From Flavobacteriales bacterium (lineage in GTDB: Bacteria > Bacteroidota > Bacteroidia > CAIKAF01): DNA of 33,770 nucleotides. The first letter of the stretch is position 1; every line of letters begins with the position of its first letter. The stretch is taken from the NCBI GenBank assembly GCA_022402535.1, contig JAKRSD010000028.1:81684-115453 (forward strand), given 5' to 3'. The notes under the pieces were generated by a model. That model was not told the DNA's origin, did not search any database, and saw nothing but the letters and a program-made list of their open reading frames with translations. A program made the position numbers and the translations under genes. Shown here piece by piece: positions 1,093-18,606 of this stretch.

Positions 1093-3402
1093 ATGTTTGC
1101 AGTCCGTTCGATCATAAATGTTTTCTTCCTATTGGTTTTTCTCAGTAGCGTTTCTGCTCAGCAGGTGGTTCGTCTGGTGGTTTCAGATTCATATTCAGAA
1201 ATGCCAGTAGATGGTGCCTGGGTTTTGCCGTCTATGTCAGAAGATACGCTGTTTACCGGGCGGGATGGTATGTTGTTCGATTCCGATTTGAAAGGTTCAG
1301 ATTATGTAGTGATTGGCAAAGCCGGGTATTTTAACGATACGCTTTTTGGTCCTAAAAGCGGTATTTATAGAATTTATCTAACAGCACTTCCTATAGGAAT
1401 TCAGGCCGTTTCTATCGTATCCGAACGTTTGGGCGCTGATAAACTGCAGACTCCTATGTATGGTTTCCGTCAAGTAAAAGATGATCCGTTTACGTTTGAT
1501 CGTATTCAGATGGCCGTGGCCATAAACTCTATCCCGGGAGCCTCCTGGGAACAAAGGGGAATTGGTGGAAGTGCACGTATTTCAATCAGGGGAAACGGTT
1601 GGAGAAGTCCATTTGGAATTCGCGGTACTCGAATATATTATGATCATATTCCGTTTTCACAGCCCGACGGATTTGGAATGCCCGAATTATTAGATCCGTA
1701 TTTTTATGATTCGTTTGAACTCTTTAAAGGGCCTGCGGGTGCGGCCTATGGCGGATATGCCGGCGGCTCATTGGTAATGAAAAAACATGCCCCTCAGCGA
1801 TATGGGCTAACGTTTGATATTGGTGTATTAGCCGGTTCTAACCGATTATTACGAGGACAGGTAGGAGCTAGCTACACAGGCAGAAACTTTTCGGTTTCGT
1901 TGAAAGGCATGAGTATGGTGCACAAAGGCTATCGAGAACAGGAATATGTAAACCGTAAATTATATCAGGCTCATGCACACTGGCGTATGCATCCCAATCA
2001 TACTGTAACATTCAATATGTTTTATGGCCTTTCGAATTGGGGATTACCCGGCGATTTAACTGCCGAACAGGCCGATACTAATGCCCGTATGGCCAATCCG
2101 TTGGCATTGAAAAATTCAGCCCGGTTAGAAAAAGAATTTGTACGGGGAGGAATAACACACACGTTTCGCGCCGGAGAAAAATTCAGTTCAGAACTGACGG
2201 TATTTGGAAACTGGACCGATAAATATAATCCGTATGCCAATTCTCACTCTTCATCGGGTATCAAAGACGAAGTGATTTCCGGTGGCGGGGTAAGGGAGAT
2301 AATTCGCATTAACTACGGTAAAAAGGTGCCATGGCATGGTTCTACCGGGTTTGAATATCAGACCGAAACCCTTACCGGAGTTGAGTTTTCGAATCAGGGT
2401 GGGGTAGAAGGAGCCGTAAAGCGAACCTACAAACTGCAGACGCATCTTTTTTTCTTGTTTTTTCAATCCACGCTGGATTTACCCAAACATTTTTTCCTTG
2501 ATTTCGGGTCTCATTTTGTGGTTACTGCGCTCGATAATAAATACTTTAATTCGGGTGGAATTTCAACCAGTGGCCGTCTACCCGTGAGGCCGGGACTGTA
2601 CCCGTACGCAGGCCTAACCAAAACGTTTCGGGACGACTATTCTGTGTATGCCCGCTATCACAACGGGTATACCACGCCTACTTTAAACGAAATGATTTCT
2701 GACGATGGAGATTTTAATACCCAACTGGTTAATGAACGATTACATCAGCTGGAAGTAGGTACCCGTGGACAAATCAGAAAGACCAGGTTTTCATGGGGTG
2801 TTGCGGGTTATTCTCATTTTTATTCCAACTTTTTAGTACCCTATTTCCCAACCCCTCAAAGTGCAGTGCGTTTCACCAATGCAGGCAATGCAAGAATATC
2901 AGGGGCTGAAGCTGAGGCCGATTGGACCGCTTTCAGTGCGACCAAAAACCGACAATTTTTACAAACCCTATGGCTGGGTCTCAGATATGCATTTTCACAA
3001 GGCACTTTATCCAATTTTCAGGATGGGAACACCGATTATTCGGGGCAACGAATTCCGGGCATTCCTGCCCACAAAGTTTCACTGCTTATCAATGTAAAAA
3101 CCCGCTATGGTTTTGCTTTTAATGTAGACCTTTCTGCCCGCAGCCGGGTAATCTTGAATTATGCCAATACCGATTCATCGCCGGGCGTGTTTAAAGGCAA
3201 TTTGAGACTGTCATGGACCGGGCGCATATTCTCCGTATTGCTCCCCGAACTTTTTGTAGGAATCAATAATTTCACCAACACCCGAGATTATTCGTTTTTC
3301 AGGATTAATGCACCCGGCGGGCGTTATTTTAACCCGGACCACGGCCTTTTTATTTATGGAGGGGTGAATATCCGAAGCAGTTCGCTTAAACTCAAACGGT
3401 AA
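1093..3402 (+). CDS. TonB-dependent outer-membrane receptor with carboxypeptidase-regulatory-like N-terminus
   Basis: About 769 residues from the chosen ATG. The N-terminus (MFAVRSIINVFFLLVFLSS, then VSAQ) is a signal peptide. An Ig-like carboxypeptidase-regulatory domain (about 24-100) follows, then a plug domain around 120-235 with IPGASWEQRGIGGSARISIRG, an IRGTRIYYDHIPF stretch and ELFKGPAGAAYGGYAGGSLV, then a beta-barrel to the end. Such receptors take up siderophores, vitamins or glycans using TonB energy; the substrate cannot be told from sequence and no SusD partner is adjacent. Closest to the siderophore/cofactor (FecA-like) class by layout, which is an inference. Upstream in-frame starts exist at 1075 (ATG) and 1063 (TTG); 1093 gives the cleanest signal peptide. 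The C-terminus (SSLKLKR) lacks the usual terminal aromatic residue. Confidence 0.9.
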   Translation: MFAVRSIINVFFLLVFLSSVSAQQVVRLVVSDSYSEMPVDGAWVLPSMSEDTLFTGRDGMLFDSDLKGSDYVVIGKAGYFNDTLFGPKSGIYRIYLTALPIGIQAVSIVSERLGADKLQTPMYGFRQVKDDPFTFDRIQMAVAINSIPGASWEQRGIGGSARISIRGNGWRSPFGIRGTRIYYDHIPFSQPDGFGMPELLDPYFYDSFELFKGPAGAAYGGYAGGSLVMKKHAPQRYGLTFDIGVLAGSNRLLRGQVGASYTGRNFSVSLKGMSMVHKGYREQEYVNRKLYQAHAHWRMHPNHTVTFNMFYGLSNWGLPGDLTAEQADTNARMANPLALKNSARLEKEFVRGGITHTFRAGEKFSSELTVFGNWTDKYNPYANSHSSSGIKDEVISGGGVREIIRINYGKKVPWHGSTGFEYQTETLTGVEFSNQGGVEGAVKRTYKLQTHLFFLFFQSTLDLPKHFFLDFGSHFVVTALDNKYFNSGGISTSGRLPVRPGLYPYAGLTKTFRDDYSVYARYHNGYTTPTLNEMISDDGDFNTQLVNERLHQLEVGTRGQIRKTRFSWGVAGYSHFYSNFLVPYFPTPQSAVRFTNAGNARISGAEAEADWTAFSATKNRQFLQTLWLGLRYAFSQGTLSNFQDGNTDYSGQRIPGIPAHKVSLLINVKTRYGFAFNVDLSARSRVILNYANTDSSPGVFKGNLRLSWTGRIFSVLLPELFVGINNFTNTRDYSFFRINAPGGRYFNPDHGLFIYGGVNIRSSSLKLKR

Positions 3403-3474
3403 TTATAAATTTTTGCGCTTTCCTTGAAGCCTTTGTTAAATTTGGATTTACTGCATTTCGGTTTGATTATTTAG

Positions 3475-3482
3475 TAATTTTG
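3475..3482 (+). promoter_or_regulatory. -7 promoter element (TAATTTTG)
   Basis: Perfect match to the Bacteroidota -7 consensus TAnnTTTG, 29 bases before the ATG at 3512. No good TTG -33 box stands at the expected 17-23 base spacing. Confidence 0.55.
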
Positions 3483-3511
3483 CCGCCTGTAAAAATTTTA
3501 ATACCAGATTC

Positions 3512-5479
3512 ATGTCAGAGAATTTGACCAATGAACCGCTAAACGAAAATGAAAATCTGCAAGGGCAGGTAACAGAAAACGGAGATCAAAACGTTTCAGA
3601 ATCACCCGTAAATAAAACAGAACCTGAACATTCAGAAGCTGATTTTACTGATGTGGTTTTTGATTCGGAATCACCGATGGAAGTAGTGGCGGAGAATATA
3701 AGCGAAGATCAGGATGCCCAGGAAGAAACGAAAGAAGAGGAAGAATTCTTTGTGGACGATCTGGATTTGGATAACCTATCAGCCAAGTTTCATGCATTAT
3801 GGGAATCCGGTGAAATTTTAAATTCAAGAGCCAATTTCCGTAAAATTCAAGATCGTTTTCATACCCTGGTGGATGATTTGAAAAATCAGGCTTTTGAAAG
3901 TTACATGGCTGAAGGAGGCGAAAAAGATTATTTTGAATTCAAAGCGGGTGAGTTGGCCGATAATCTGCGTACAAAACTCGATGAAATCGGAAAACGCTTT
4001 ATCGAACTGCGCAGAAAAAAAGAGCAGGAGCTTCAGGAAAATTTCCTGAAAAAACAGGATATCATTCAGGAACTGAAACAACTGATTGAGAACGAAGCCG
4101 ACATCAACAAAGCCCATAATTTATTCCGTGAACTTCAGGAGCGCTGGAAAAACACAGGACAGGTTATTTCTCAAAAGGCCGAAGAACTCAACAATAACTA
4201 CCGCCACTGGGTAAATATGTTCTATCGTTCTTTACAGATGAACAAGGAACTCTTTACCGTGGAGCTCAAAAAGAATGTGGAAATTAAAGAACGCATTGTG
4301 AAAGGAGCGGAGAGCCTGCAAAAAATGAGCAGCATCAACAAGGCGCTTGAGTTTTTGCACGATTATCAAAAGCAATGGAGAGAAACCGGTCCCGTGCCCA
4401 GAGCGGAAAACGAAGAGCTTTGGCAACGATTCAAAAAAGCTTCTGACGCGGTGATTATCCGCAGAGATGAGCATATTAAACAACTCAATGAAGAGCGCAC
4501 CAAAAATCTGGAAATAAAAACAGGACTTTGCGAAGAAATGGAATCCATTGCGGCAGGCGATTATCCTACGATGAAAGATTTTCGTGAGGCCGAAAAGAAA
4601 GTAACCGATTTGGATAAACGATGGAGAGCCACCGGACGGGTTGCCAATGAATTTAACGAGAGCATCTGGCAACGTTTTCGCGAAGCCCGCAAAGCTTTTA
4701 ACGCCAAACGTACAGCATTGATTCAGCAGTCTGAAAGCGTGTTTAAAAAGAATCTGGCCGACAAAGAAGCATTGTGTGAAAAAGCCGAAGCCATTCAGGA
4801 CAGCACCGATTGGAAAAACACTACCCAGGCCTTTTTGAAACTGCAGGAAGATTGGAAAAAAACAGGTCCGGTTTCACGCGAAGTGAGTGAAAAAATATGG
4901 CAACGATTCCGTGCAGCAGCCAATCATTTTTTCAATAAAAAAGAGGAGCATTTCAAAGCCATTCCTGAGCAGGAAAAACAAAATCTGGAAGCAAAACGAG
5001 CCGTAATTGAAAAAATTAATGCCTACGAACATACGGCAGAAGTGTCTGAAAGTTTTGCGGCGATGAATGCATTACGCAAAGAATTTAACGCCATCGGTTT
5101 TGTGCCCATGAAAGAAAAAGCGGCGTTGGATAAAGAAATGGATGATGCCGTGAAAGCCTTTTTTGCAAAAATAAATGTAGACCCGGCCGAGAAAAACAGA
5201 ATTGAATTTAAAGGAAGGATAGACGCGTTAGTTGCCGCTCCCGATGCAATGGATCAAATCCGCAAAGAGCGCACGGCCATCCGTTTGAAAATGGAAAAAT
5301 TGCTCGAGGAAGTAAATCAGTTAGAAAACAACATCCGTTTCTTCGGAAATTCTAAAAATGCAGAAGAAGTAACCAAACCTTACCGCGAAAAAGCAGAACG
5401 TCTGAAAGAAGATATTAAACAATTGGAAGACAAACAGAATCAACTGAAGCGGGCAGCCAAACAGCTCGAAACAAAATAA
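3512..5479 (+). CDS. DUF349 repeat protein
   Basis: 655 residues, no signal peptide, predicted cytoplasmic. The first ~85 residues are acidic and low in complexity (runs of E, D and N). The rest is almost all helical and made of about six related units of ~70 residues, each built on a W or F, then TGPV-like turn, then LWQRF-like motif: for example KQWRETGPV...LWQRFKKA, KRWRATGRV...IWQRFREA and EDWKKTGPV...IWQRFRAA. These are DUF349 repeats, common in Bacteroidota as a single large protein of unknown function. The last ~90 residues form a coiled coil with KLLEEVNQLENNI and a lysine-rich end. It stands alone between the TonB receptor and a strong terminator, with its own -7 element. The family identification is firm; no function is claimed. 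Confidence 0.92.
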   Translation: MSENLTNEPLNENENLQGQVTENGDQNVSESPVNKTEPEHSEADFTDVVFDSESPMEVVAENISEDQDAQEETKEEEEFFVDDLDLDNLSAKFHALWESGEILNSRANFRKIQDRFHTLVDDLKNQAFESYMAEGGEKDYFEFKAGELADNLRTKLDEIGKRFIELRRKKEQELQENFLKKQDIIQELKQLIENEADINKAHNLFRELQERWKNTGQVISQKAEELNNNYRHWVNMFYRSLQMNKELFTVELKKNVEIKERIVKGAESLQKMSSINKALEFLHDYQKQWRETGPVPRAENEELWQRFKKASDAVIIRRDEHIKQLNEERTKNLEIKTGLCEEMESIAAGDYPTMKDFREAEKKVTDLDKRWRATGRVANEFNESIWQRFREARKAFNAKRTALIQQSESVFKKNLADKEALCEKAEAIQDSTDWKNTTQAFLKLQEDWKKTGPVSREVSEKIWQRFRAAANHFFNKKEEHFKAIPEQEKQNLEAKRAVIEKINAYEHTAEVSESFAAMNALRKEFNAIGFVPMKEKAALDKEMDDAVKAFFAKINVDPAEKNRIEFKGRIDALVAAPDAMDQIRKERTAIRLKMEKLLEEVNQLENNIRFFGNSKNAEEVTKPYREKAERLKEDIKQLEDKQNQLKRAAKQLETK

Positions 5480-5496
5480 TATATTTCGAAGGTTTT

Positions 5497-5540
5497 AATC
5501 CGGAATTCGCAATAAAACGCGTGGATTCCGGATTTTTTTT
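5497..5540 (+). terminator. Rho-independent terminator after the DUF349 gene
   Basis: AATCCGGAAT (5497-5506) pairs perfectly with ATTCCGGATT (5525-5534), followed by eight Ts. There is no T-run on the other strand, so it serves the plus-strand gene only. Confidence 0.9.
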
Positions 5541-5560
5541 CTGATAAATAAGGAATTACA

Positions 5561-7252
5561 CTATTTGTAAAATCTTCGGCGGATGATGGCATACATAACC
5601 ACTACAAAAAGAACTCCCGCAATCCAGAATCCCGTGAGGCTTATGTAGGGTAAACCCGTTTCGGTGGACATGAATTTTTCAGGGAAAGGTACTGTAGCTG
5701 TTATCGATGAGCCGATGATTAATGCGGCAATAATCAGCGTCATAATCAGTCGGTTGGTAAGGCTGTCCAGCTTTTTCAGTAAGTAGCCGTACCCCTGATG
5801 TTCAATGGTGAAATTGATTTTTCCGCGGCTTGCCTGTTGAAGAATTTCGCGCACTTCCACCGGAAACGAAGTCATAAATGAGGTAACCTGCTCCGTACGG
5901 TATTGTATTTCATTCCATACATTATCCGGAGACCATTGTTCCTGTAATATTTTGGCTCCGTAAGGTTTAATATGGTCGTAGGTTTTCAGCTGCGGATACA
6001 TAATTTTTCCGATTCCTTCCAGAATGGCAAGCGCCCTGAATACCAAAAACACCCCGGGAGGCATATACATCTGGTAATTCAGCATGATTTTTTGCAGCTC
6101 GTTGGTCAGGTCGGCAATGGAGCCTTCATCCACGCTGAGGGTCGCATAATCATCAATTAATTCCTGTAAATCCGATTCAAAGGCTCTTATGTCTTTGATA
6201 TTATCTTCTACAGCCAGTTTTTTCATGTTCACGGCCATAGACCGGGCATCTTCTTTCGCCATGGACACAAAAACCATGGCAAAGGCATGTTTATCTTTTT
6301 TGGAAAGTTGCCCCACCATACCAAAATCAATCAGACAGATGGTTCCGTCCTGCCTTACCAGCACATTCCCCGGATGCGGATCGGCATGAAAAACACCATA
6401 TTCAAAAATCTGTTTCAGGTATATATTGAGCCCATTTTCTACGATGGATTTAACATTCAGCCCCCATTCTCTTATTTGTTTTTTGTCGGTGAATTTACAT
6501 CCGCTGACAAATTCAATGATGAGCACTTTATCGGTAGAAAACTCTCGAAAAACCTTAGGAATATAAAAATTATCGTAGCCTTTGTACAGTTCCCTGAATT
6601 TAGAAATATTGCGGGCCTCGTTGGTATAGTCCAACTCTTTGCTCATGCTCCGGTCAAACACATTTACAATGTCCTGCGCATTCAGCACGCCCTGTTTTTT
6701 CAGATAGCGGTCAGAACGTTTTACGATTTCATGAAGCAACTGCAAATCCCTGTCTACCGTTTCTTTCACTGTGGGACGTTGCACTTTTACCACCACTTCA
6801 GGACCGTTTTTCAGTTTGGCCCTGTGCACCTGACCGATGGATGCAGAGGCCAAGGGAACGTCGGTAAAATATTCAAACAATTCTTCCAGCGGAACACCGG
6901 TTTCCATCTCTATGATGGTTTTGGCTTCATCCGAAGGAAAAGGGGGAACCCGGTCCTGTAATTTTTCAAACTCTTTTAATAATCCTTCCGGAACAATATC
7001 GGGGCGGTTACTCAGAATCTGACACAGTTTCACGAAGGTAGGGCCTAGTTCTTCGGCTGCCATGCGAATACGCTCATAGCGCGAATACTGCAAGGCGGGT
7101 TTTTCCTGGCGCAGCCATTTGATTCTCAATCCTTCCGGAACCAGATTTCTCAGGGTGGAATTGGCAATCAGGTCCTCAAAACCGTATTTTACCAACACAG
7201 ACATGATTTGCCTGAGCCGCCCTAAATTTTTAATCGTTCCGCCAAGTCCCAT
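5561..7252 (-). CDS. UbiB/AarF/ABC1-family atypical kinase
   Basis: 563 residues, typical for the UbiB/ADCK family. Members are membrane-associated atypical kinases or ATPases linked to isoprenoid quinone biosynthesis and lipid homeostasis. Visible motifs: the N-terminal KxGQ region as KLCQ (75-78) in GPTFVKLCQILSNRPD, the A-rich loop ASASIGQVH (135-143), the presumed ATP-binding Lys in VVVKVQRP (K156), KELDY (205-209), the catalytic HADPHPGN (289-296) and the metal-binding D309 in LIDFG. Two hydrophobic C-terminal segments (about 508-528 and 538-558) form a membrane anchor. The oddity is Cys77 in place of the family's Gly in KxGQ. It is monocistronic and divergent from cmk, with the DUF349 gene converging on its 3' end. 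The name ubiB is not assigned because Bacteroidota make menaquinone and the role is not established. Confidence 0.93.
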   Translation of the reverse strand: MGLGGTIKNLGRLRQIMSVLVKYGFEDLIANSTLRNLVPEGLRIKWLRQEKPALQYSRYERIRMAAEELGPTFVKLCQILSNRPDIVPEGLLKEFEKLQDRVPPFPSDEAKTIIEMETGVPLEELFEYFTDVPLASASIGQVHRAKLKNGPEVVVKVQRPTVKETVDRDLQLLHEIVKRSDRYLKKQGVLNAQDIVNVFDRSMSKELDYTNEARNISKFRELYKGYDNFYIPKVFREFSTDKVLIIEFVSGCKFTDKKQIREWGLNVKSIVENGLNIYLKQIFEYGVFHADPHPGNVLVRQDGTICLIDFGMVGQLSKKDKHAFAMVFVSMAKEDARSMAVNMKKLAVEDNIKDIRAFESDLQELIDDYATLSVDEGSIADLTNELQKIMLNYQMYMPPGVFLVFRALAILEGIGKIMYPQLKTYDHIKPYGAKILQEQWSPDNVWNEIQYRTEQVTSFMTSFPVEVREILQQASRGKINFTIEHQGYGYLLKKLDSLTNRLIMTLIIAALIIGSSITATVPFPEKFMSTETGLPYISLTGFWIAGVLFVVVMYAIIRRRFYK

Positions 7253-8122: not shown

Positions 8123-8758
8123 ATGCTCGAAAAAATATTTATAAGCGGAATTGGTACCGAAGTGGGAAAAACCATCGTTTCTGCGGTGTTAACCGAAGCC
8201 CTGCAGGCCGATTATTGGAAACCTTTGCAGGCGGGAAATATGGAATTTAGCGACAGTCAGACCGTAAAAAGCCTGATTACCAATAAAAAATCGGTCATTC
8301 ATCCTGAAAAATATGCTATGTTTTTAGCCGCATCGCCCCATTTGGCTGCTAAAGAAGAAGGAATAAAAATTTCGGTGAAGGATTTTGAAATTCCCGAAAC
8401 GTCCAATAAGAACCTGATTATAGAAGGGGCCGGCGGATTGATGGCCCCGCTGAACAGTAAAGAAACCATGCTGGATCTGGTGAAACACCTGCAGGCCAAA
8501 GTGATTCTGGTGAGTATAAATTATTTGGGATCTATTAATCATACCCTGCTTTCGGCTTACGCCCTGCAAAAAGAAGGAATTGAAGTGCTGGGTATCATTT
8601 TTAACGGCCGCAAACACGACCCTTCAGAAAAAATCATTAAAAAACTTACGGGGCTGCCCGTGCTGGGAAGGGTGGAGCGTATGCCTGACCCCTCGAAAGA
8701 ACTGATTTTGGAAGAAGCGAAAAAATTTACCGGTATTTTACATACGGATGGAATCTGA
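8123..8758 (+). CDS. bioD: Dethiobiotin synthase
   Basis: 211 residues. It closes the ureido ring of biotin: 7,8-diaminopelargonate + CO2 + ATP to dethiobiotin. It has the N-terminal P-loop GTEVGKT (11-17), YWKPLQAG with the substrate/ATP-contacting Lys, and IIEGAGGLMAPLN with the conserved Glu-Gly-Ala-Gly-Gly segment. It is slightly short for the family (about 220-230) but no motif is missing. It sits 11 bases after cmk, and its last 11 bases overlap the start of bioA, so the two biotin genes are probably translationally coupled. bioB, bioF, bioC and bioH are not in the window. Confidence 0.95.
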   Translation: MLEKIFISGIGTEVGKTIVSAVLTEALQADYWKPLQAGNMEFSDSQTVKSLITNKKSVIHPEKYAMFLAASPHLAAKEEGIKISVKDFEIPETSNKNLIIEGAGGLMAPLNSKETMLDLVKHLQAKVILVSINYLGSINHTLLSAYALQKEGIEVLGIIFNGRKHDPSEKIIKKLTGLPVLGRVERMPDPSKELILEEAKKFTGILHTDGI

Positions 8759-10022
8759 ATCCCTATCGGAACGCGATGCACGGGTGTTGTTTCATCCCTT
8801 CACGGTGTTTAATCCGTTGCACCGTAACCTTGTGGCGGAAAGGGGCGAAAAAGAATTTTTAATTACTGCCGACGGGCGAAAAATTATTGATGCCGTTTCG
8901 TCGTGGTGGCTCAATCTTCACGGGCATAATCATTCGTACATTAATCAAAAGATAAAACAGCAGATTGATACACTGGAGCATGTTATTTTTGCCGGGTTCA
9001 CCCATGCGCCAGCCGTTCATCTGGCCGAAAGATTGTTGGGTTTGGGAGGTGAAGATTACGCTAAAGTGTTTCTTTCCGACAATGGAAGCACTTCTGTAGA
9101 AGTGGCGTTGAAAATGGCGATTCAGGCTTCTGTTATTCGCGGTGAAGGGCGAAAAGATGTAATTGCTTTTAAAAATGCCTATCACGGAGATACGTTGGGA
9201 GCCATGAGCGTGAGCGAACGCGATTTATTTGTAAAACCCTTTCGTGAACACCTTTTTCCTGTAGATTATATCGATGTGCCGGATAACCAAAACCGGGAAA
9301 GCGTTTTTGAACAGTTTGAAATGCTGTGTAAAACGAAACCCGCTGCCTTTATTTTTGAGCCGTTGGTTCAGGGAGCAGGAGGCATGCGTATGTATGCGGC
9401 AGAAGACCTTGACAAATTAATAGAAATTGCCCAAAAACACGGAGTGCTTTGCATAGCCGATGAGGTTATGACCGGCTTTGGACGAACAGGTTCATTGCTG
9501 GCTTCGCATCAACTGACCCATTCGCCCGACTTTATTTGCCTTTCCAAAGGTTTGACGGGAGGATATTTGCCCTTGGGAGCCACGTTGATTTCGGGTGAAG
9601 TGGCAGTCTGTTTTGAAACGGGAGACCCAGAAAAAGCCTTTTATCATGGGCATTCCTTCACCGGAAATCCAATTTCCTGTACGGCAGCATTGGCTTCGCT
9701 GGATTTACTGGAATCCGATTCCACCCGCGTTCAGCTTGAGCATATCAATCAAATATTTTCCCACTGGAAAGAGTCTTTTTCAACGCTTCCGTTTGTATCA
9801 GATGCACGCTGTAAAGGCGGTATTTTTGCCTTTGATTTCAACACCCATTCTGAAGGATATTTTTACACCGATCCCATAAAACAAAAGCTGTACGAGTATT
9901 TTTTATCAAAAGATATTTTAATCCGCCCTATGGGCAATGTGGTGTATGTGATGCCCCCTTATTGCATTTCGGATGATTCGTTACAAAAAATTGAAAAAGC
10001 CATACTCGATATTCTTTTCTAA
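8748..10022 (+). CDS. bioA: Adenosylmethionine-8-amino-7-oxononanoate aminotransferase
   Basis: 424 residues, a class III PLP-dependent aminotransferase. It makes 7,8-diaminopelargonate from 8-amino-7-oxononanoate, with S-adenosylmethionine usually the amino donor, and its product is the substrate of the BioD encoded just upstream. BioA-type features: HPFTVFNP and SSWWLNLHGHNH near the N-terminus, the phosphate-binding DNGSTSVEVALKMA (111-124), AYHGDTLGAMSVS, IADEVMTGFGRTG with cofactor-binding Asp238, and the Schiff-base Lys267 in CLSKGLTGGYLPLG. The start at 8748 overlaps bioD by 11 bases. A bidirectional terminator follows. Neighbourhood and motifs together favour BioA over a general omega-aminotransferase. 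Confidence 0.96.
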   Translation: MESESLSERDARVLFHPFTVFNPLHRNLVAERGEKEFLITADGRKIIDAVSSWWLNLHGHNHSYINQKIKQQIDTLEHVIFAGFTHAPAVHLAERLLGLGGEDYAKVFLSDNGSTSVEVALKMAIQASVIRGEGRKDVIAFKNAYHGDTLGAMSVSERDLFVKPFREHLFPVDYIDVPDNQNRESVFEQFEMLCKTKPAAFIFEPLVQGAGGMRMYAAEDLDKLIEIAQKHGVLCIADEVMTGFGRTGSLLASHQLTHSPDFICLSKGLTGGYLPLGATLISGEVAVCFETGDPEKAFYHGHSFTGNPISCTAALASLDLLESDSTRVQLEHINQIFSHWKESFSTLPFVSDARCKGGIFAFDFNTHSEGYFYTDPIKQKLYEYFLSKDILIRPMGNVVYVMPPYCISDDSLQKIEKAILDILF

Positions 10023-10084: not shown

Positions 10085-11026
10085 TTATACAGCTCTATAT
10101 ATGAGGAGTATGTAAATGATGGGTAACAGAATAATTACCGTACGGTTTATCAGGGTGGCCAGTTTTTCCTGATTTCTATTTTTTAAGAGATATACCGTTC
10201 CCGAAATAAACAGACATACTAAAATGGCAACAAACGTGTAAATATGAATTTGATCGGAAAGGCTGAATCCGCTGCTTTCCGGAAGTTTGGAATCTACAAT
10301 ATATTTGTTACCCACGGTGGCAAAAATTCCCCCGATACTCAGTGAAACTCTTGCGTCTAAATTATTTATCGGAAGTATTAAGGAGATGAAAATGAATCCA
10401 AAAGCAATAAATACCACGCTGAAATATTTCCAGAATAATCCGGGTTGTTTTCTTTTGATTTTGATAATTACATCCACCGCAGAATATTCAGAATGTCCGT
10501 CTACAATGGAAGGGTCGCCGTAAGCCGTTTCGTACTTCACAACCTGAGGCTCCAGATGAAAATCCAATAATTCCCAATCATCAAAATTAATCTGCGGGCT
10601 GAGTTTACTGCCGGCAATATCCGGTTTGAAATAGACTCTCCGGGTATCATACATATTGTCTTCCACCCGAATTTTCAATGTCTGCACGTCAAAAGGAAAT
10701 TGGTTCGAATCATAATTTTGATTGACCAAAAGTTTGAAATTCTGGGAAGTCCAGTTTTTTCCTTCCACTTTTTCTACTTCTTTGCTGATCATTTCCGCTT
10801 CTTTGGCATCCGGAAATTCAAGATGGTCATAAATTTCCAGCGAGTCGTCATCATAGGTCATCCACAACCAAAAGGTGGTAGTGAATTCTCCCGAAGACAA
10901 ATTCATATCATACAACGAGTTGATAAATAATCCCAGATTAACCGTATCGGGTACTTCGGACTCGTTTTGTGAACGGCCTGTTAAACCCAACAAGGCCATG
11001 AAAAGAATAAGGAGCAGTTTTTTCAT
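10085..11026 (-). CDS. Prokaryotic pentameric ligand-gated ion channel (Cys-loop receptor family)
   Basis: 313 residues, close to GLIC and ELIC. A signal peptide (1-19) precedes an all-beta extracellular (periplasmic) ligand-binding domain of ~180 residues, which carries the family's Pro-loop signature FPFDVQTLKIRVED (110-123) without the two animal-type cysteines, as in other bacterial members. Four membrane helices follow: M1 about 199-219, M2 about 224-247 (DARVSLSIGGIFATVGNKYI, then VDSKLP), M3 about 257-281 and M4 about 292-311. By eye, M2 aligns without gaps to GLIC: Asp at -2' where GLIC has Glu (suggesting cation selectivity), Ser at 2', Gly at 6' and an unusual Phe at 9'; GLIC's 11' His is Thr. 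Ligand and physiological role are unknown. The M3-M4 loop is short, as in prokaryotes. Monocistronic; convergent with bioA and divergent from the esterase operon. Confidence 0.88.
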   Translation of the reverse strand: MKKLLLILFMALLGLTGRSQNESEVPDTVNLGLFINSLYDMNLSSGEFTTTFWLWMTYDDDSLEIYDHLEFPDAKEAEMISKEVEKVEGKNWTSQNFKLLVNQNYDSNQFPFDVQTLKIRVEDNMYDTRRVYFKPDIAGSKLSPQINFDDWELLDFHLEPQVVKYETAYGDPSIVDGHSEYSAVDVIIKIKRKQPGLFWKYFSVVFIAFGFIFISLILPINNLDARVSLSIGGIFATVGNKYIVDSKLPESSGFSLSDQIHIYTFVAILVCLFISGTVYLLKNRNQEKLATLINRTVIILLPIIYILLIYRAV

Positions 11027-11083: not shown

Positions 11084-11117
11084 TTTGTGAACGGTCGTTT
11101 TTAATTTGTGAACGGTC
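11084..11117. promoter_or_regulatory. Tandem 13-bp direct repeats, candidate operator
   Basis: TTTGTGAACGGTC occurs exactly at 11084-11096 and again at 11105-11117, a period of 21 bases (two helical turns). It lies in the 210-bp divergent region between the ion-channel gene and the esterase operon, about 60-90 bases before the channel start and 90-125 bases before the esterase -7 element. The geometry suits two protomers of one regulator on the same DNA face. Confidence 0.5.
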
Positions 11118-11184
11118 TTATCCATTCAATAAAAACGCAATAAGGATGAATTGTCTCGTAGAGCCGTATGCCTTTGTATTTATT

Positions 11185-11215
11185 TTTGGATTGTTCGGCA
11201 TACATACTAAATTTG
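11185..11215 (+). promoter_or_regulatory. Promoter of the esterase-acylase operon (-33 TTTG, -7 TAAATTTG)
   Basis: TTTG at 11185-11188 and a perfect -7 element TAAATTTG at 11208-11215 with 19 bases between them, inside the accepted Bacteroidota spacing. The ATG at 11237 lies 21 bases past the element, so the earlier in-frame ATG at 11168 would be upstream of the transcript. Confidence 0.7.
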
Positions 11216-11236
11216 CGCAAAGGGCAATCAATTTTC

Positions 11237-12166
11237 ATGTGGAATTCATTCAAAAATAAGCTGGTAAAACTATTCTTTCGTGTCACAAAATACCTGATTT
11301 TTCATCATGATTATCAGGCGGAGCATTACCGCAAAGGCATGGAATGGTTTACCTCTTTTTTGGGGTATCCCCGAAAAAAAATGCAATACAATGCATTAGA
11401 AATTGATGGTATGCAAGCCGAATGGGCTATACCCGATAACCGTTCAAATAACCGGGTGATATTATACCTTCATGGAGGTGGCTATGCGATGGGCTCCATT
11501 AAATCGCACCGACCTCTGGTTACCCGTCTGGCGTTGGCTTCCGGAAGCAGAGTATTGTCGATAAATTATCGCCTTGCGCCAGAAAATAAATTTCCCTGTG
11601 CCCTGGAAGATGCCATTAAAGCGTATGAATTTATATTAGAATCGGGCGTTAAACCTAAAGAAATAGCCATAGCCGGTGATTCGGCGGGAGGCGGGCTTAC
11701 AGCTTCCACGTTAATGCGGATTCGTGATTTGGGTATGGAAATCCCACTCGCGGGCATTTGTCTTTCGCCCTGGATGGATTTGGAAGGAGCCGATGAACGC
11801 ATGCTTGAGAAAGCAGAAGAAGATCCCTTTATTGATTTGGAATCCATTCAAATCTGGGGAAAACGATATGCCCCCGACGATTTAAAAAATCCCTATGCTT
11901 CGCCCAAATATGGCGATTTCACAGGTGTTTGTCCCATACTCATTCAAGTGGGAACAGCCGAAATATTGTATTACGATGCTTTGGCCTTAAAACAAAATTG
12001 TGAACGCGACGGGGTGCAATACCGCTTTGAAGAATATCCCGAAATGATTCATGTATTTCAGACTTTCGGAGGATTTCTTCAGGAAGCTGATGATGCCATT
12101 GCCCAGATTGCCCGTTTTATAGCCGAAACCGCCGAAAATCCTGTAAGGGAACCCCAAAATGTATGA
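11237..12166 (+). CDS. Alpha/beta hydrolase of the hormone-sensitive-lipase (family IV) esterase type
   Basis: 309 residues. It has the oxyanion-hole HGGG (79-82) in YLHGGGYAMGS, the nucleophile elbow GDSAGG with Ser149, YRLAPE (the conserved strand after the oxyanion loop), the probable acid D247 in AEILYYDA, and His272 in MIHVFQTF, giving a complete Ser-Asp-His triad. Family members hydrolyse short-chain esters; the native substrate is unknown. There is no clear signal peptide (the hydrophobic N-terminal LVKLFF is short), so it is probably cytoplasmic or peripheral. The start at 11237 is fixed by the promoter at 11208-11215. Its stop overlaps the start of the penicillin-acylase-family gene by four bases (ATGA), indicating translational coupling. 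Confidence 0.92.
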   Translation: MWNSFKNKLVKLFFRVTKYLIFHHDYQAEHYRKGMEWFTSFLGYPRKKMQYNALEIDGMQAEWAIPDNRSNNRVILYLHGGGYAMGSIKSHRPLVTRLALASGSRVLSINYRLAPENKFPCALEDAIKAYEFILESGVKPKEIAIAGDSAGGGLTASTLMRIRDLGMEIPLAGICLSPWMDLEGADERMLEKAEEDPFIDLESIQIWGKRYAPDDLKNPYASPKYGDFTGVCPILIQVGTAEILYYDALALKQNCERDGVQYRFEEYPEMIHVFQTFGGFLQEADDAIAQIARFIAETAENPVREPQNV

Positions 12167-14607
12167 AACTGATAAAACTGATACTCGTTTCTTCTCTCAC
12201 CGTGGCTTTATTGTATCTGTTCAACCGCGTAATGGTGGTAAACAACAATGCACTTCCGCCGCTGGGTAAAATTTTAGACCCCGTAAACGGCTTTTGGGCC
12301 AATGCCGAAAAGGATATTCCCCGCCTTAAAAAGGCTATCCGCTCCGATAAATTAAAAGGAGAAGTAACCGTGAAGTATGACGAACGCTGGGTTCCCCATA
12401 TTTTTACCACGGATACCCGCGATGCCTATTTTGTGCAGGGGTATGTTACCGCCGCACACCGCCTTTGGCAGATGGAATTTCAGACACATGCCGCATCGGG
12501 CAGACTTTCCGAAATTTTATATCACAGTTTGGGCGATAAGGTGTTGAAAAACGATCGTTTTATGCGTCGAAACGGTTTGCTGCGTTCTGCGCAGGCTACG
12601 GTAGAAGCGTTTGAAAGTGACCCCGAAGCCAATATGATTGTTACTGCTTACACCGAAGGGGTAAATGCCTATATCGAATCACTTTCTTACAAAGACTATC
12701 CGGTAGAATATAAACTGTTAGACTACAAACCCGAAAAATGGTCGAAACTCAAATGTGCTCTACTGTTGAAATATATGGCTCACATGCTTACCGGCGAAAG
12801 CGAAGATGTAGCGTTGTCTAATCAAGTGAATCGCTTTGGCATGGACTTCGTGAATTTGTTTTATCCCGATTTTCCTTCCGATTTGTCCGACCCAATCATT
12901 CCTGCAGGAACGGTGTATGAAAAGGACCCCGGAATCGCCGCTAAAACGGATACGCTTTCAACAGATACTTCCATGCAGGTGTCGGCTTCCATGAGTCCGT
13001 TTGAAAAACTGCCCGAAGGGTTGGGGAGCAACAACTGGGCGGTCGCCGGCTCTAAAACGGCAACGGGTGCCCCCATCTTATGCAACGATCCGCATCTGCA
13101 GCTCAACTTCCCTTCCATTTGGTTTGAAATGCAGATTACCACACCCGATTATAATGTGTATGGGGTAACGCTGCCCGGAGCGCCGGCCGTTATCATCGGG
13201 TTTAACGATTACATTTCGTGGGGCGTAACCAATGGAACCCGCGAAGTAAAAGACTGGTATAAGGTACAGTTTAACGACACACGTACGGAATACCTTGTAG
13301 ATGGCGTATGGGAAAAAGCCATTATTCAGAAAGATACGTTTTATCTGCGGGGTGAAAAAGAACCGTTTATTGATGAAATCATCCACACCCGTTTTGGTAC
13401 CGTGGTGTTTGATCAGGGCATGAAGGATGATAATTCTTCCGATAATCTGGTTTGCCGGTGGATTGCCGAAGAAGTTTCCAACGAAATGTTCACGTTCGTA
13501 AAACTGAACCGGGCCCGTAATTATGAAGATTATGCGAATGCATTGAAGCATTTCAACTGCCCCGCGCAGAATTTTGTGTTTGCTTCCAAAACAGGAGATA
13601 TTGCCATTTGGCAGCAGGGCGGATTGTATCCTTTTGAAAAAGGGCAGGGACGTTTTGTGCAGGATGGCAGCCTGTCTCAAAATCTTTGGACAGAAAAGAT
13701 AAATCCTGATTACACGCCGCATATCAAAAATCCGGAGCGCGGGTTTGTCAGCTCGGCGAATCAACATCCCACCGATGCTGCGTATCCGTATTACTACAAC
13801 GGACGTTTTGAATATTTCCGGAATCGCAGGATTAATGCGGAACTGACCCGTTTGTCGAATATCAGCATCAAGGATATGATGACCCTCCAGAACGATAATT
13901 ACAACCTCATTGCCGCCGAAGCGCTGCCTGTAATTCTTCCTTATCTGAACGAAAAAGCCAAAAAATCGGAATATACGGCCTTATTGAATACATGGAATTT
14001 TTTCAATGATGCCGGTCAGGAAGCCCCGTCTGTATTTCAGGCCTGGTGGGATCAGGTAATGGAAATGATGTTTGAAGAATTGAAAGAAAGTGAAAAAGAG
14101 TATATCATTCCCCAGCAGTACAATGTAATCCGGGCTATGAAAACCCATCCCGATCATGTTATTTATGACGATGTACGTACTCCGAAAAAAGAAAACCTTT
14201 CCGATATGATTAATTTGGCTTTTGTGAATGCGACCGCCGAATTAGACAGCGTGAAAGCCGTTAAAGGCAATCTGCAATGGGCCAATTACAAAGAAACTTC
14301 CGTGCAGCATCTGCTCTTTACGCTCAAGCCTTTCAGCCGGTTTAACATACCCATCGGTGGCGGAAAAAGCATCGTAAACGCTTGTGCCGACCGTTGGGGG
14401 CCATCTTGGCGTATGGTGGTTTCACTCGAAAAAGAAACTAAAGCGTATGGGGTATATCCGGGCGGACAGTCTGGTAATCCGGGAAGCCGTTTTTACGACA
14501 ATATGATTAATACCTGGGCGGCAGGTGAATACTACGAACTATGGGTGATGAAATCCGAAAACGACGAAAAAGGAAAAGTACTTTTTTCCCAAATGTTCTT
14601 TAACTGA
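12163..14607 (+). CDS. Penicillin acylase family (peptidase S45) Ntn hydrolase
   Basis: 814 residues, standard for the precursor. Family members are cut autocatalytically into alpha and beta chains, and the new N-terminal Ser of the beta chain is the nucleophile that hydrolyses amide bonds (beta-lactam side chains, N-acyl homoserine lactones or other acyl amides). Residues 1-20 form a hydrophobic N-terminal signal/anchor, so the protein is exported. The alpha part contains the FVQGYVTAAHRLWQMEF segment typical of the family. Ser289 in GLGSNNWAVAGS marks the processing site, followed by NDPHLQLNFPSIWFEM; downstream are ISWGVTNG and the C-terminal GGQSGNPGSRFYDN. The substrate is not predictable. 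It is coupled to the upstream esterase and followed by a small membrane protein 18 bases later. Confidence 0.93.
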   Translation: MKLIKLILVSSLTVALLYLFNRVMVVNNNALPPLGKILDPVNGFWANAEKDIPRLKKAIRSDKLKGEVTVKYDERWVPHIFTTDTRDAYFVQGYVTAAHRLWQMEFQTHAASGRLSEILYHSLGDKVLKNDRFMRRNGLLRSAQATVEAFESDPEANMIVTAYTEGVNAYIESLSYKDYPVEYKLLDYKPEKWSKLKCALLLKYMAHMLTGESEDVALSNQVNRFGMDFVNLFYPDFPSDLSDPIIPAGTVYEKDPGIAAKTDTLSTDTSMQVSASMSPFEKLPEGLGSNNWAVAGSKTATGAPILCNDPHLQLNFPSIWFEMQITTPDYNVYGVTLPGAPAVIIGFNDYISWGVTNGTREVKDWYKVQFNDTRTEYLVDGVWEKAIIQKDTFYLRGEKEPFIDEIIHTRFGTVVFDQGMKDDNSSDNLVCRWIAEEVSNEMFTFVKLNRARNYEDYANALKHFNCPAQNFVFASKTGDIAIWQQGGLYPFEKGQGRFVQDGSLSQNLWTEKINPDYTPHIKNPERGFVSSANQHPTDAAYPYYYNGRFEYFRNRRINAELTRLSNISIKDMMTLQNDNYNLIAAEALPVILPYLNEKAKKSEYTALLNTWNFFNDAGQEAPSVFQAWWDQVMEMMFEELKESEKEYIIPQQYNVIRAMKTHPDHVIYDDVRTPKKENLSDMINLAFVNATAELDSVKAVKGNLQWANYKETSVQHLLFTLKPFSRFNIPIGGGKSIVNACADRWGPSWRMVVSLEKETKAYGVYPGGQSGNPGSRFYDNMINTWAAGEYYELWVMKSENDEKGKVLFSQMFFN

Positions 14608-15456: not shown

Positions 15457-16245
15457 ATGAAATTCAAATTAATGCTGATTTGTTTAAGCTTGTTGTTAAG
15501 CGGAATTGTTATTGCACAAACCTGTACAGGACACTCCGATGCTGAAAGATTCTATACCAGCCCTGCAATAAAAGAAATTGTTACGAAAGGAGTTTTCGAT
15601 GAAGAAAAGCTCGGTGAAATTAGCCGATGCGAAGGATTCTTTAATTATCCTGCATTGGTAGATTATTTGAATGAAAATGATGAAACCAACAAAACCCAAA
15701 ACGGTTTTAAATCGGAAACCGAACTTAACGGAATAGTAGTTTTACCTGTAAATGCAGTATATGAAAACGAAGCAATCCGTGCAGAACTGATTAATACAAA
15801 AACAACAACCCTGTTCAGGTTTGAATCAGGTAACCGATATGAATTAATTAAGCATGCCTACGTAATTAAAGACACCGAAGGAAATACATTGAATACCTTT
15901 TCCGAATCGTGGTGGGTTTGCAAAACAACAGGGGCATACAGACATTCTGTCTGCACAGATGCAACTGATTTTACAAATGAAAATCGGTTAGTGTTTGAAT
16001 TATACCCCAACCCGGCCTCTGAACGTGTATTTATAAAAATTCTGAGCGCAACAGCATCTGAAAATTTTACGGCTTCCATAATTACCTCTGATGGTAAATC
16101 AACCGGGATTACAGGCAGTGTAAAATACTTTAATCAAGTAAATGAAGCTATATCGTTAAACACAGCCCAACTTTTGCCCGGTATTTACTGGGTTAGTTTA
16201 ACCGACGGAATAAACCTGACCACTAAAAAATTAATCATACAATAA
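15457..16245 (+). CDS. T9SS type A sorting-domain protein of unknown function
   Basis: 262 residues. A signal peptide (1-20, ending GIVIAQ) is followed by a ~160-residue region I do not recognise, with several cysteines (in CTGHSD, SRCEGF, WWVCKTTG and HSVCTDA), then a C-terminal secretion tail from about 183 (FELYPNPASERVFIKI ... LLPGIYWVSLTDG ... KKLIIQ). The tail directs proteins through the outer-membrane type IX system, with release or LPS anchoring. It is the first of four closely packed plus-strand genes for exported proteins; the next starts 15 bases after the stop. It is divergent from the XRE regulator. Confidence 0.88.
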   Translation: MKFKLMLICLSLLLSGIVIAQTCTGHSDAERFYTSPAIKEIVTKGVFDEEKLGEISRCEGFFNYPALVDYLNENDETNKTQNGFKSETELNGIVVLPVNAVYENEAIRAELINTKTTTLFRFESGNRYELIKHAYVIKDTEGNTLNTFSESWWVCKTTGAYRHSVCTDATDFTNENRLVFELYPNPASERVFIKILSATASENFTASIITSDGKSTGITGSVKYFNQVNEAISLNTAQLLPGIYWVSLTDGINLTTKKLIIQ

Positions 16246-16260
16246 TCCACATCGCTGATC

Positions 16261-18363
16261 ATGAAAACCGTTTTTAATTACCTGATTACATTCATTCTGT
16301 TTGTATTTTCTTGCCATAGTCTTTTTTCCCAATGTGTTGACGGAGGTTTAGAGCAAAATGACACAACCTCATGGAACACATGGTTTGGGGCTTTTAATAC
16401 AACACCCGAAAATATGACTCAGGGTATTTCTGTTCAACCGCCGCCTAATTTTAATTCAGTTCAAATTGTAAATTCAGGTTTTGATCCGAATGTTTCAATA
16501 TTAAATCGGGTTTTAAATGGAAATAATGCATTAAGAATTGGAAATCTCGGAGCTAATGATCCTATAAATGTTAACTCCTCCATGGCATCTTATACGTTTA
16601 CCGTAGATGCCTCCAACGAAAATTTCAGGTTCTGGTATGCTATGGTGGCCAACAGTTCGCCCCATGCAAGCGACGATGAGCTAAACCGGATGACCTGGTA
16701 TATGAAACTGGGCCCGGGTACCACTGCCAATGCCGCCATACCCGTTAACACTTCTGACCCCAGTTGGAATCTTTACCAACTGACGGCTTTTCAGCGGGTA
16801 ATACCCCAGGACCCGACAACCGATCCCTGGTTTACACAATTTAATAACTCACCTATTTGGTACAGGAGTTGGACCTGCCAAAATTACGATCTGTCAGCCT
16901 GGCGTGGCCAACAGATAACCATCTATTTCAGAACCTACGACTGCCTGCCGGGAGGCGATTTACTATATATGTATGTGGACGGTTTATGTTCGCCTCAAAG
17001 TCTTAATGTCAGTTTTGATTTGCCCACGACGGCATGCCGAACACCCGAGACTCCTCTTATTTTAGATGCAACTGCCACACAAAATGCAGACAGTTATACC
17101 CTTTCCATAGTAGAAGATTTACCCCCGGGTACTCCGTTTCAAACTATATTTTCTACCTTATATACAGGTACTTTTTTTACACAGCCGCCCGGTATTGTTG
17201 ATATAAGAGAATTATATAGAACGCAAACGGGTATTACCCGTTTTCAATGCGGTAAGCGATACAAAGTGCGACTTACGGCTACAAATTCTTGCGGTGAAAA
17301 TGGTTCTGTAGAGAAAATAATCAGAATAACCTGCCCCCCCGTGAATGCCGGTAGTGATAAGGTAGTATGTTGTGGACAAAATGTGACAATTGGGCTTAAT
17401 CTGGGCGGCTACATTTGGCCGTACCCTTCATTTTCATGGAGCCCTGTACCGGCAGGTGTAGAAGGTAATACGGCACAGATGACCTTTACACCCACCCAAA
17501 GCGGAATATACACCCTTACCACTACTGATAATAACGGATGCACCAACTCTGATAGGGTTAATGTGAAACTAATCAGAGATTTTGAAGTTAATGTTTCAGA
17601 GAATTGTCCACAGGGGAGTAATCTTGATGAAAGAATCAGAAGTTGTGAAGGGTATTACACATTGACGGCAAATGTAAACGAATTGACATGCCCTAAAGTA
17701 AATGGAGAAACAACAGGTCAGCAACCAATCTATGATGATTATTCATTTGAATGGCATTATAACGGTTTTACACATTATGGAAGAACAATTCAAACTCCAC
17801 CTTATGTAAATGGACAAGACTCAATTAAATTAATTGTAAGTAATTCTTGTTTCAGTAAAACTATAAATTATCGTTTTAACTGCCCTAAATTTGTTGGATT
17901 GTTTCCTGTTTTAACATTTCCATCGGCATTTTCTCCCTTAAATGCAACAAATCCGCAAAATCTTATCTTTTATATTAAACACTATTTTAACGGACAGACA
18001 AATGGGAATTGGTGGGATGGTGCACCGAATGCTTATAACGCTTATGGATTTCATTTACGAGTTTATGATAGGTGGGGGGGATTGGTTTACAATAAAAAAG
18101 TTTTGGACTATTCAGGATTAGAACAAAGCGAAATTTCATGGAATGGAAAATATAATGGGACAGGTAACGTTTTGCCTCAAGGTGTTTATAATTTTACATT
18201 AGATTTATTTAATTGTTCATTTCCTGATGGTTATAGGGTCCAGACTACATTAAGTTATCATTGTGTAAGTGAAATCTGGTTTTTTGGTATGATTTGCTCT
18301 GAATCCTATTTTCATACATGGACAAATCCTTCAGGTATTTTTTATGTTAATTTATTACATTAA
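16261..18363 (+). CDS. Large secreted protein with PKD-like region and a degenerate gliding-motility-type C-terminal domain
   Basis: 700 residues. Signal peptide 1-23 (ends HSLFSQ). The N-terminal ~250 residues resemble a jelly-roll/lectin-like module (WYMKLGPGTTANAAIP ... YMYVDGLCSPQ). A PKD-like stretch near 365-435 contains NAGSDKVVCCGQNVTIGL and GIYTLTTTDNNGC. Around 545-650 there is a gliding-motility-associated (T9SS type B) C-terminal domain: FPSAFSPLNATN, YGFHLRVYDRWGGLVYN, SWNGKYNGTGNVLPQGVYNFTLDL. Type B domains normally end soon after the final beta strand; here ~50 more residues (SYHCVSEIWFFGMICSES...) follow, so the signal may be altered. Base composition drops sharply from about 17,575 onward. 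Probably a cell-surface protein; function unknown. Confidence 0.8.
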   Translation: MKTVFNYLITFILFVFSCHSLFSQCVDGGLEQNDTTSWNTWFGAFNTTPENMTQGISVQPPPNFNSVQIVNSGFDPNVSILNRVLNGNNALRIGNLGANDPINVNSSMASYTFTVDASNENFRFWYAMVANSSPHASDDELNRMTWYMKLGPGTTANAAIPVNTSDPSWNLYQLTAFQRVIPQDPTTDPWFTQFNNSPIWYRSWTCQNYDLSAWRGQQITIYFRTYDCLPGGDLLYMYVDGLCSPQSLNVSFDLPTTACRTPETPLILDATATQNADSYTLSIVEDLPPGTPFQTIFSTLYTGTFFTQPPGIVDIRELYRTQTGITRFQCGKRYKVRLTATNSCGENGSVEKIIRITCPPVNAGSDKVVCCGQNVTIGLNLGGYIWPYPSFSWSPVPAGVEGNTAQMTFTPTQSGIYTLTTTDNNGCTNSDRVNVKLIRDFEVNVSENCPQGSNLDERIRSCEGYYTLTANVNELTCPKVNGETTGQQPIYDDYSFEWHYNGFTHYGRTIQTPPYVNGQDSIKLIVSNSCFSKTINYRFNCPKFVGLFPVLTFPSAFSPLNATNPQNLIFYIKHYFNGQTNGNWWDGAPNAYNAYGFHLRVYDRWGGLVYNKKVLDYSGLEQSEISWNGKYNGTGNVLPQGVYNFTLDLFNCSFPDGYRVQTTLSYHCVSEIWFFGMICSESYFHTWTNPSGIFYVNLLH

Positions 18364-18372
18364 ATTTGGTAT

Positions 18373-18606
18373 ATGAAAACAAAAGTAACGGCTGCTTTAT
18401 TTATTTTAATTTTTTCAGCATCTTTTATGGCATGCAAAAGATGTTGGAAATGCGATAATTATGTATTGAATATGGGGAATGGTCAATACGAAAAAACTGG
18501 CGAAACAGAATTATGTAATGTTAGTGCCAGAGATATGAACACTAAAGTTGATTATCTTAAAAATGATCCTACGGACGGTTGGGAGTGTACTTCTTTTTAT
18601 AAGTAA
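18373..18606 (+). CDS. Small lipoprotein with a CxxC motif
   Basis: 77 residues. Lipobox FMAC at 18-21 after a short hydrophobic signal, so mature Cys21 should be lipidated. The mature part is ~57 residues and contains KRCWKCDNY (a CxxC) and two more cysteines (ELCNVS, WECTSF), possibly one or two disulfides or a metal site. It begins nine bases after the 700-residue protein gene, and its last 44 bases overlap the next gene in another frame. AT-rich like its surroundings. Family unknown to me; small CxxC lipoproteins like this are common next to T9SS cargo in Bacteroidota. Confidence 0.75.
   Translation: MKTKVTAALFILIFSASFMACKRCWKCDNYVLNMGNGQYEKTGETELCNVSARDMNTKVDYLKNDPTDGWECTSFYK

Follow-up and report, generated by a model that had tools for sequence, protein, structure and literature searches.

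The gene described here raises the question of what opens a pentameric ligand-gated ion channel (pLGIC) in a bacterium, and whether the pore of this one sets it apart. It lies in a 33,770-nucleotide stretch of DNA from a Flavobacteriales bacterium, which is called the window below; searches of the 3.41 Mb assembly revealed no other pLGIC. Bacterial pLGICs are structural models for nerve receptors, yet according to PMC4795631 none of the pLGICs of unicellular organisms has a known biological role. The initial annotation described a channel with an unusual pore that may respond to a different ligand.

The window protein is almost certainly a genuine pLGIC. Its open reading frame is exact at the coordinates in Table 1, starts with ATG, and is intact over 313 amino acids. 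The search against channel family models gave a divided result: the ligand-binding model (PF02931, neurotransmitter-gated channel ligand-binding domain) scored 32.2 bits, above its cut-off of 26, but the transmembrane model (PF02932) was not reported for the window protein and matches three of the 60 members of the alignment. Two channel models in NCBIfam match as well, both under cut-off. Among sequences in the PDB, phmmer aligned residues 69-307 with GLIC, the proton-gated channel of Gloeobacter violaceus (E 4e-5, no gap in M2), and a profile of seven relatives matched GLIC with an E value of 2e-13. The AlphaFold2 model, a single-chain prediction from 60 sequences, has a mean pLDDT of 93.2 and a pTM of 0.81; an N-terminal helix is followed by a beta-rich extracellular domain and four helices (residues 195-217, 223-247, 256-283, and 287-312). 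Foldseek placed GLIC first (E 2e-21), while GluCl, GABA-A, and GLIC were tied in VIA-align (Z about 25, 2.2-2.7 Å over about 278 residues), and the structural match spans M1-M4. The domain layout and these fold matches identify a pLGIC subunit, and its family membership implies that it would assemble as a pentamer. The FPFD Pro-loop aligns with GLIC residues 119-122 and Arg192, just before M1, with GLIC R192. The initial annotation was thus right about the Pro-loop and M1-M4, as PF02931, the GLIC match, and the modelled helices all agree. The signal peptide that it proposed is probable, since the model has a compatible hydrophobic helix at residues 2-14; in structural superposition, homology to GLIC, GluCl, and ELIC, the amine-gated channel of Erwinia/Dickeya, begins at about residue 22. 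Although GLIC is the best match by both sequence and Foldseek, the two proteins are only 17-18% identical. A match of DUF998 to M1-M4 was under cut-off and was set aside as probable resemblance between membrane helices. The idea that Pfam misses this clade was also dropped, because PF02931 matches 52 of the 60 members at E<=0.001 when full proteins are scanned. As a whole-genome query the same model gave matches in only two of 296 Bacteroidota genomes.

Table 1. The pLGIC gene of the window, its parts, and the adjoining genes.
Feature	Positions	Strand	Basis or remark
bioD-like ORF	8123-8758	+	Converges on pLGIC gene; named from its sequence
bioA	8748-10022	+	Converges on pLGIC gene; NCBIfam
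pLGIC subunit gene, 313 aa	10085-11026	-	ORF; Pfam PF02931; GLIC match; AlphaFold2 model and fold search
M4 helix, residues 287-312	10091-10168	-	Model
M3 helix, residues 256-283, with Asp258 and His261	10178-10261	-	Model and alignment
M2 pore helix, residues 223-247, clade signature G6' F9' G13' N14' K15' Y16'	10286-10360	-
M1 helix, residues 195-217, kink position Val204	10376-10444	-	Model and alignment
Extracellular (periplasmic) ligand-binding domain, residues 22-192	10451-10963	-	DSSP strands in model; PF02931; superposition of 22-313 with pLGICs
Loop C, residues 165-181 (Tyr165 constant; Tyr181 at ELIC Phe188 position)	10484-10534	-
Glu122, loop B, at ELIC Glu131 position	10661-10663	-	Gap-free from Pro-loop; PMC3119659
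Pro-loop FPFD, residues 110-113	10688-10699	-	Aligned with GLIC and ELIC YPFD/FPFD
Probable signal peptide, residues 1-20	10967-11026	-	Hydrophobic helix 2-14 in model
Tandem 13-bp direct repeat TTTGTGAACGGTC, 21 bp apart	11084-11117	.	In 141-bp gap between divergent pLGIC and hydrolase genes
Alpha/beta hydrolase (HSL-type esterase)	11168-12166	+	Divergent neighbour; PF07859, E 3e-52
Penicillin-acylase family hydrolase	12163-14607	+	Divergent neighbour; PF01804, E 2e-190

The pore sequence is a hallmark of a clade and no peculiarity of the window protein. Since M2 aligns with GLIC without gaps, the letters first assigned to it (D-2', S2', G6', F9', T11', and G13') are correct. They do differ from those of GLIC (T2', S6', I9', A13') and, at 9', from the Leu of ELIC. 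DeCLIC and sTeLIC, further prokaryotic pLGICs, were compared by description only, and DeCLIC also has Leu at 9' (L554, PMC9897478). To this extent the pore is unusual, but G6', F9', and G13' are normal among the protein's own relatives. In the aligned relatives G6' is found in 102 of 114, F9' in 103, G13' in 98, N14' and K15' in 100 each, and Y16' in 102, an agreement that is inflated because 80 loci were retrieved with patterns covering part of M2. The closer relatives recovered with a whole-protein profile from 395 Bacteroidota genomes, where no M2 pattern was used, have the same signature. Phe 9' is known elsewhere too, being listed for 13% of 561 pLGICs (PMC4795631). Variants occur at greater distance: a relative in Azospirillum has A6'/F9'/G13'/N14'/K15'/Y16', one in Streptomyces has T6'/F9'/L13', and a distant Bacteroidota clade (eight loci of one GTDB family) has T6'/L9'/F13'/Q15', with Tyr instead of His261. 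The clade survey thus corrects the notion that there is anything special in the letters of the pore. The oddities of the window protein lie at V1', S2', Asn96, Tyr105, Val204, and Phe211, where its relatives are nearly constant. It is typical of a broad, unstudied clade and slightly divergent itself.

The extracellular pocket, which sets the ligand where the pore cannot, is more like that of an amine or amino acid receptor than that of GLIC. Gap-free matches to ELIC, checked against PDB chains, pair E122 with E131 in loop B, W53 with Y38 in loop D, Y181 with F188 in loop C, and Arg192 with R199. GLIC has I131, F42, and E181 at the positions of E122, W53, and Y181, in an alignment that follows the phmmer one except in the N-terminal part of GLIC. 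Among the 98 core relatives that have a residue at position 122, it is Glu in 96 and Asp in two, and position 70, within an LEF motif, is Glu or Asp in 98 of 98. The amine bound by ELIC adjoins E77 and E131 (PMC3119659). The E70 motif may correspond to the LEF of ELIC that contains E77, although the match is ambiguous by a few residues because the whole clade lacks about 18 residues of the stretch that joins strands 2 and 3 (the loop A region, present in GLIC). The resemblance to ELIC extends to the membrane, with an aromatic at 16', found also in DeCLIC (F561), and an Asp at the start of M3. It is not complete, however, as loop B F133 and the complementary N103 of ELIC are replaced by N124 and S94. 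At position 96, 92 of 98 relatives have Lys and the window protein has Asn; the GLIC residue there is Arg105, which binds carboxylates (PMC7336382).

The positions associated with proton gating in GLIC are largely lost. E26, E35, H235, and H277 correspond to Ser37, Gly46, Thr237, and Tyr279, while D122, E222, and E243 have retained equivalents in Asp113, Asp224, and Asp245. The initial annotation had put weight on the 11' His of GLIC, but this residue is not the decisive sensor: the non-titratable H235Q mutant is still proton-gated, and E35 is better supported (PMC5760087). Its proposal of a different ligand stands insofar as the pocket and the lost proton positions make GLIC-like gating improbable; the argument from the pore does not hold.

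We tentatively favor an amine- or amino-acid-gated, cation-selective channel of the inner membrane, with ligand and selectivity both read from a sequence that cannot by itself identify the ligand. The protein would form a homopentamer whose ligand-binding domain is periplasmic. At the interfaces of its subunits, Glu122 of loop B and an aromatic cage (Trp53, Tyr165, and Tyr181) would hold a small amino-bearing ligand, which could be a primary amine, an amino acid, or a breakdown product related to these. Binding would be relayed to the M2 helices through the pair formed by Arg192 and the Pro-loop, of which P111, F112, and D113 are invariant wherever the core relatives have letters at these positions. 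A hydrophobic gate, formed by Phe 9' and Tyr 16', would then open, and acidic rings at -2' and 19' would let cations pass. A constant cluster of Lys 15', Asp258, and His261 between M2 and M3 may fill the structural or gating place of the GLIC M2 His 11'.

This cluster can also be read in another way. Lys 15' occurs together with Asp258 and His261 in 100 of 100 core relatives, whereas in sequences where 15' is Gln, position 261 is mostly Tyr and the acid at 258 is nearly always retained. His261 aligns with GLIC I259 on M3; one turn away is I262, and GLIC His235 binds the carbonyl of that residue (PMC5760087). The pattern suggests that a polar M2-M3 link takes the place of the His235 link. The same invariant triad is titratable, and its nearness to the site of the His235 contact, with the retention of the D122, E222, and E243 equivalents, fits a channel gated or modulated by protons through groups other than those of GLIC. 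We consider this unlikely, as the sensor best supported in GLIC is missing along with E26, H235, and H277, and as a proton signal leaves the conserved amine-type pocket with Glu122 unexplained.

Cation selectivity is likely from the charges that flank the pore. An acid is present at -2' in 108 of 114 relatives, and nearly all core relatives have Asp or Glu at 19'; GLIC has acids at both positions, and its E-2' is the key element in the filter that selects cations (PMC5760087). Against this, ELIC has its selectivity acid at -1', where the window protein has none, and an Arg at 0', found in 110 of 114 relatives, precedes the M2 helix. The start of M2, A-R-V-S-L-S-I, resembles that of the glycine receptor. 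Together with this Arg and the nearly level ranking of glycine and GABA-A receptors with GLIC in fold searches, it would suit an anion-selective channel gated by an amino acid. Such a channel is improbable in view of the acid at -2', and the Arg carries little information because Arg or Lys is found at 0' in 79% of all pLGICs (PMC4795631).

Control by divalent cations is a further alternative, in which the channel would be blocked by these ions and opened by their removal, as in DeCLIC. Conserved acids are abundant in the extracellular domain (D27, D40, E122, D127, and D136), as such a channel might have, but the extra N-terminal domain of DeCLIC has no counterpart in the window protein, where only about 20 residues come before the channel module. 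The three consecutive loop F glutamates of DeCLIC were not seen in it either, and we regard this reading as quite improbable.

The M1 kink position is one of the sites at which the window protein departs from its clade. Of 99 core relatives, 96 have Gly there, where the window protein has Val204; a kink proline is found in 77% of pLGICs (PMC4795631), GLIC and ELIC included. The M2-M3 proline of GLIC is retained as Pro249. Departures of this kind (N96, Y105, V204, F211, and V1') and a long terminal branch in the tree (1.56) could mark a non-conducting receptor-like protein, a degenerate copy in this genome, but that is highly doubtful for an intact frame of 313 amino acids that keeps the Pro-loop, Arg192, Pro249, and the K15'-D258-H261 set and is modelled with a confidence of 93.

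The relatives are widespread in Bacteroidota. The whole-protein profile found them in 26 of 395 evenly drawn Bacteroidota genomes, and a pattern search of the species collection, with patterns that included part of M2, gave 170 confirmed stretches. In the GTDB family of the window only three of 16 genomes have a relative, the window genome included, and the other copies are 34-37% identical; the survey of the order covers the same 16 genomes. A quick tree places the window protein beside a sequence from Microscillaceae and apart from the copies of its own family (SH-aLRT 89), a placement weakened by long branches, and the joins with Azospirillum, Streptomyces, ELIC, and GLIC were not relied on. 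This grouping suggests that transfer or loss of paralogues is likely to lie behind the placement of the gene. Bacteroidota pLGICs have been known since 2004, when three (ART-LGICs) were described in Cytophaga hutchinsonii (PMC549065). By description, one of them shares the simple architecture of the window protein, while at least one of the others has extra sensor domains (PMC549065).

The genes around the channel offer a weak lead to its ligand, one that fits an amine or amino acid signal. The penicillin-acylase gene of the window is the strongest of three in the genome and overlaps the hydrolase gene upstream of it by 4 bp. Adjacency makes it possible that the hydrolase is co-regulated with the pLGIC, and the repeat pair between the two divergent genes is a possible shared operator; the exact 13-mer was found nowhere else in the assembly. 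A third near-copy, with one mismatch, lies within the pLGIC coding region (10966-10978). In nine other loci a penicillin acylase is directly downstream of the pLGIC gene, the spacing between the two being about -30 to +30 bp, and an amidohydrolase is directly behind it in four loci and an S9 peptidase adjacent in eight. These acylase and peptidase neighbors mostly reflect the shared gene order of one lineage, so they represent few independent events and carry little weight. The window acylase is only 25-28% identical to acylases adjoining other pLGICs, which indicates that its divergent arrangement is not the same conserved operon. Two other neighbor clusters (586 and 147 amino acids, 40-45 loci each) also look like the shared order of one lineage and were rejected as functional evidence. 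On plasmid pAB510b of Azospirillum B510 (positions 3304-7246 of locus L117), the pLGIC relative belongs to a run of genes on one strand that also includes a hypothetical gene, ABC-type binding proteins, and, directly behind the pLGIC, an alanine racemase. Bacterial pLGIC genes beside, or fused to, small-molecule-binding domains were reported in 2004 (PMC549065); among the papers searched, none was found that treats a pLGIC together with a penicillin acylase.

A broader proposal, which we regard as a long shot, is that this large, uncharacterized branch of pLGICs, which spans Bacteroidota and has Azospirillum and Streptomyces relatives, detects periplasmic amino acids or amines freed by neighboring acylases and peptidases, and uses for gating an M2-M3 ionic cluster that GLIC and ELIC lack. 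If true, sensing of acylase or peptidase products would be the first physiological role for a bacterial pLGIC. The clade is rich in members, its extracellular domain is compact and its pore fixed, and it comes with a testable prediction of the ligand and with candidate enzyme partners.

Several minor features were also seen. Tandem pLGIC genes occur in several Bacteroidota (five loci), one pair overlapping by 4 bp, and could permit hetero-pentamers. Another locus (L112) has an open frame of 740 residues with a pLGIC-like region and probably an extra domain. Elsewhere in the window (15457-20392 and 24694-28056) there are PKD-rich surface proteins and type IX secretion C-terminal sorting domains (Por_Secre_tail, CHU_C).
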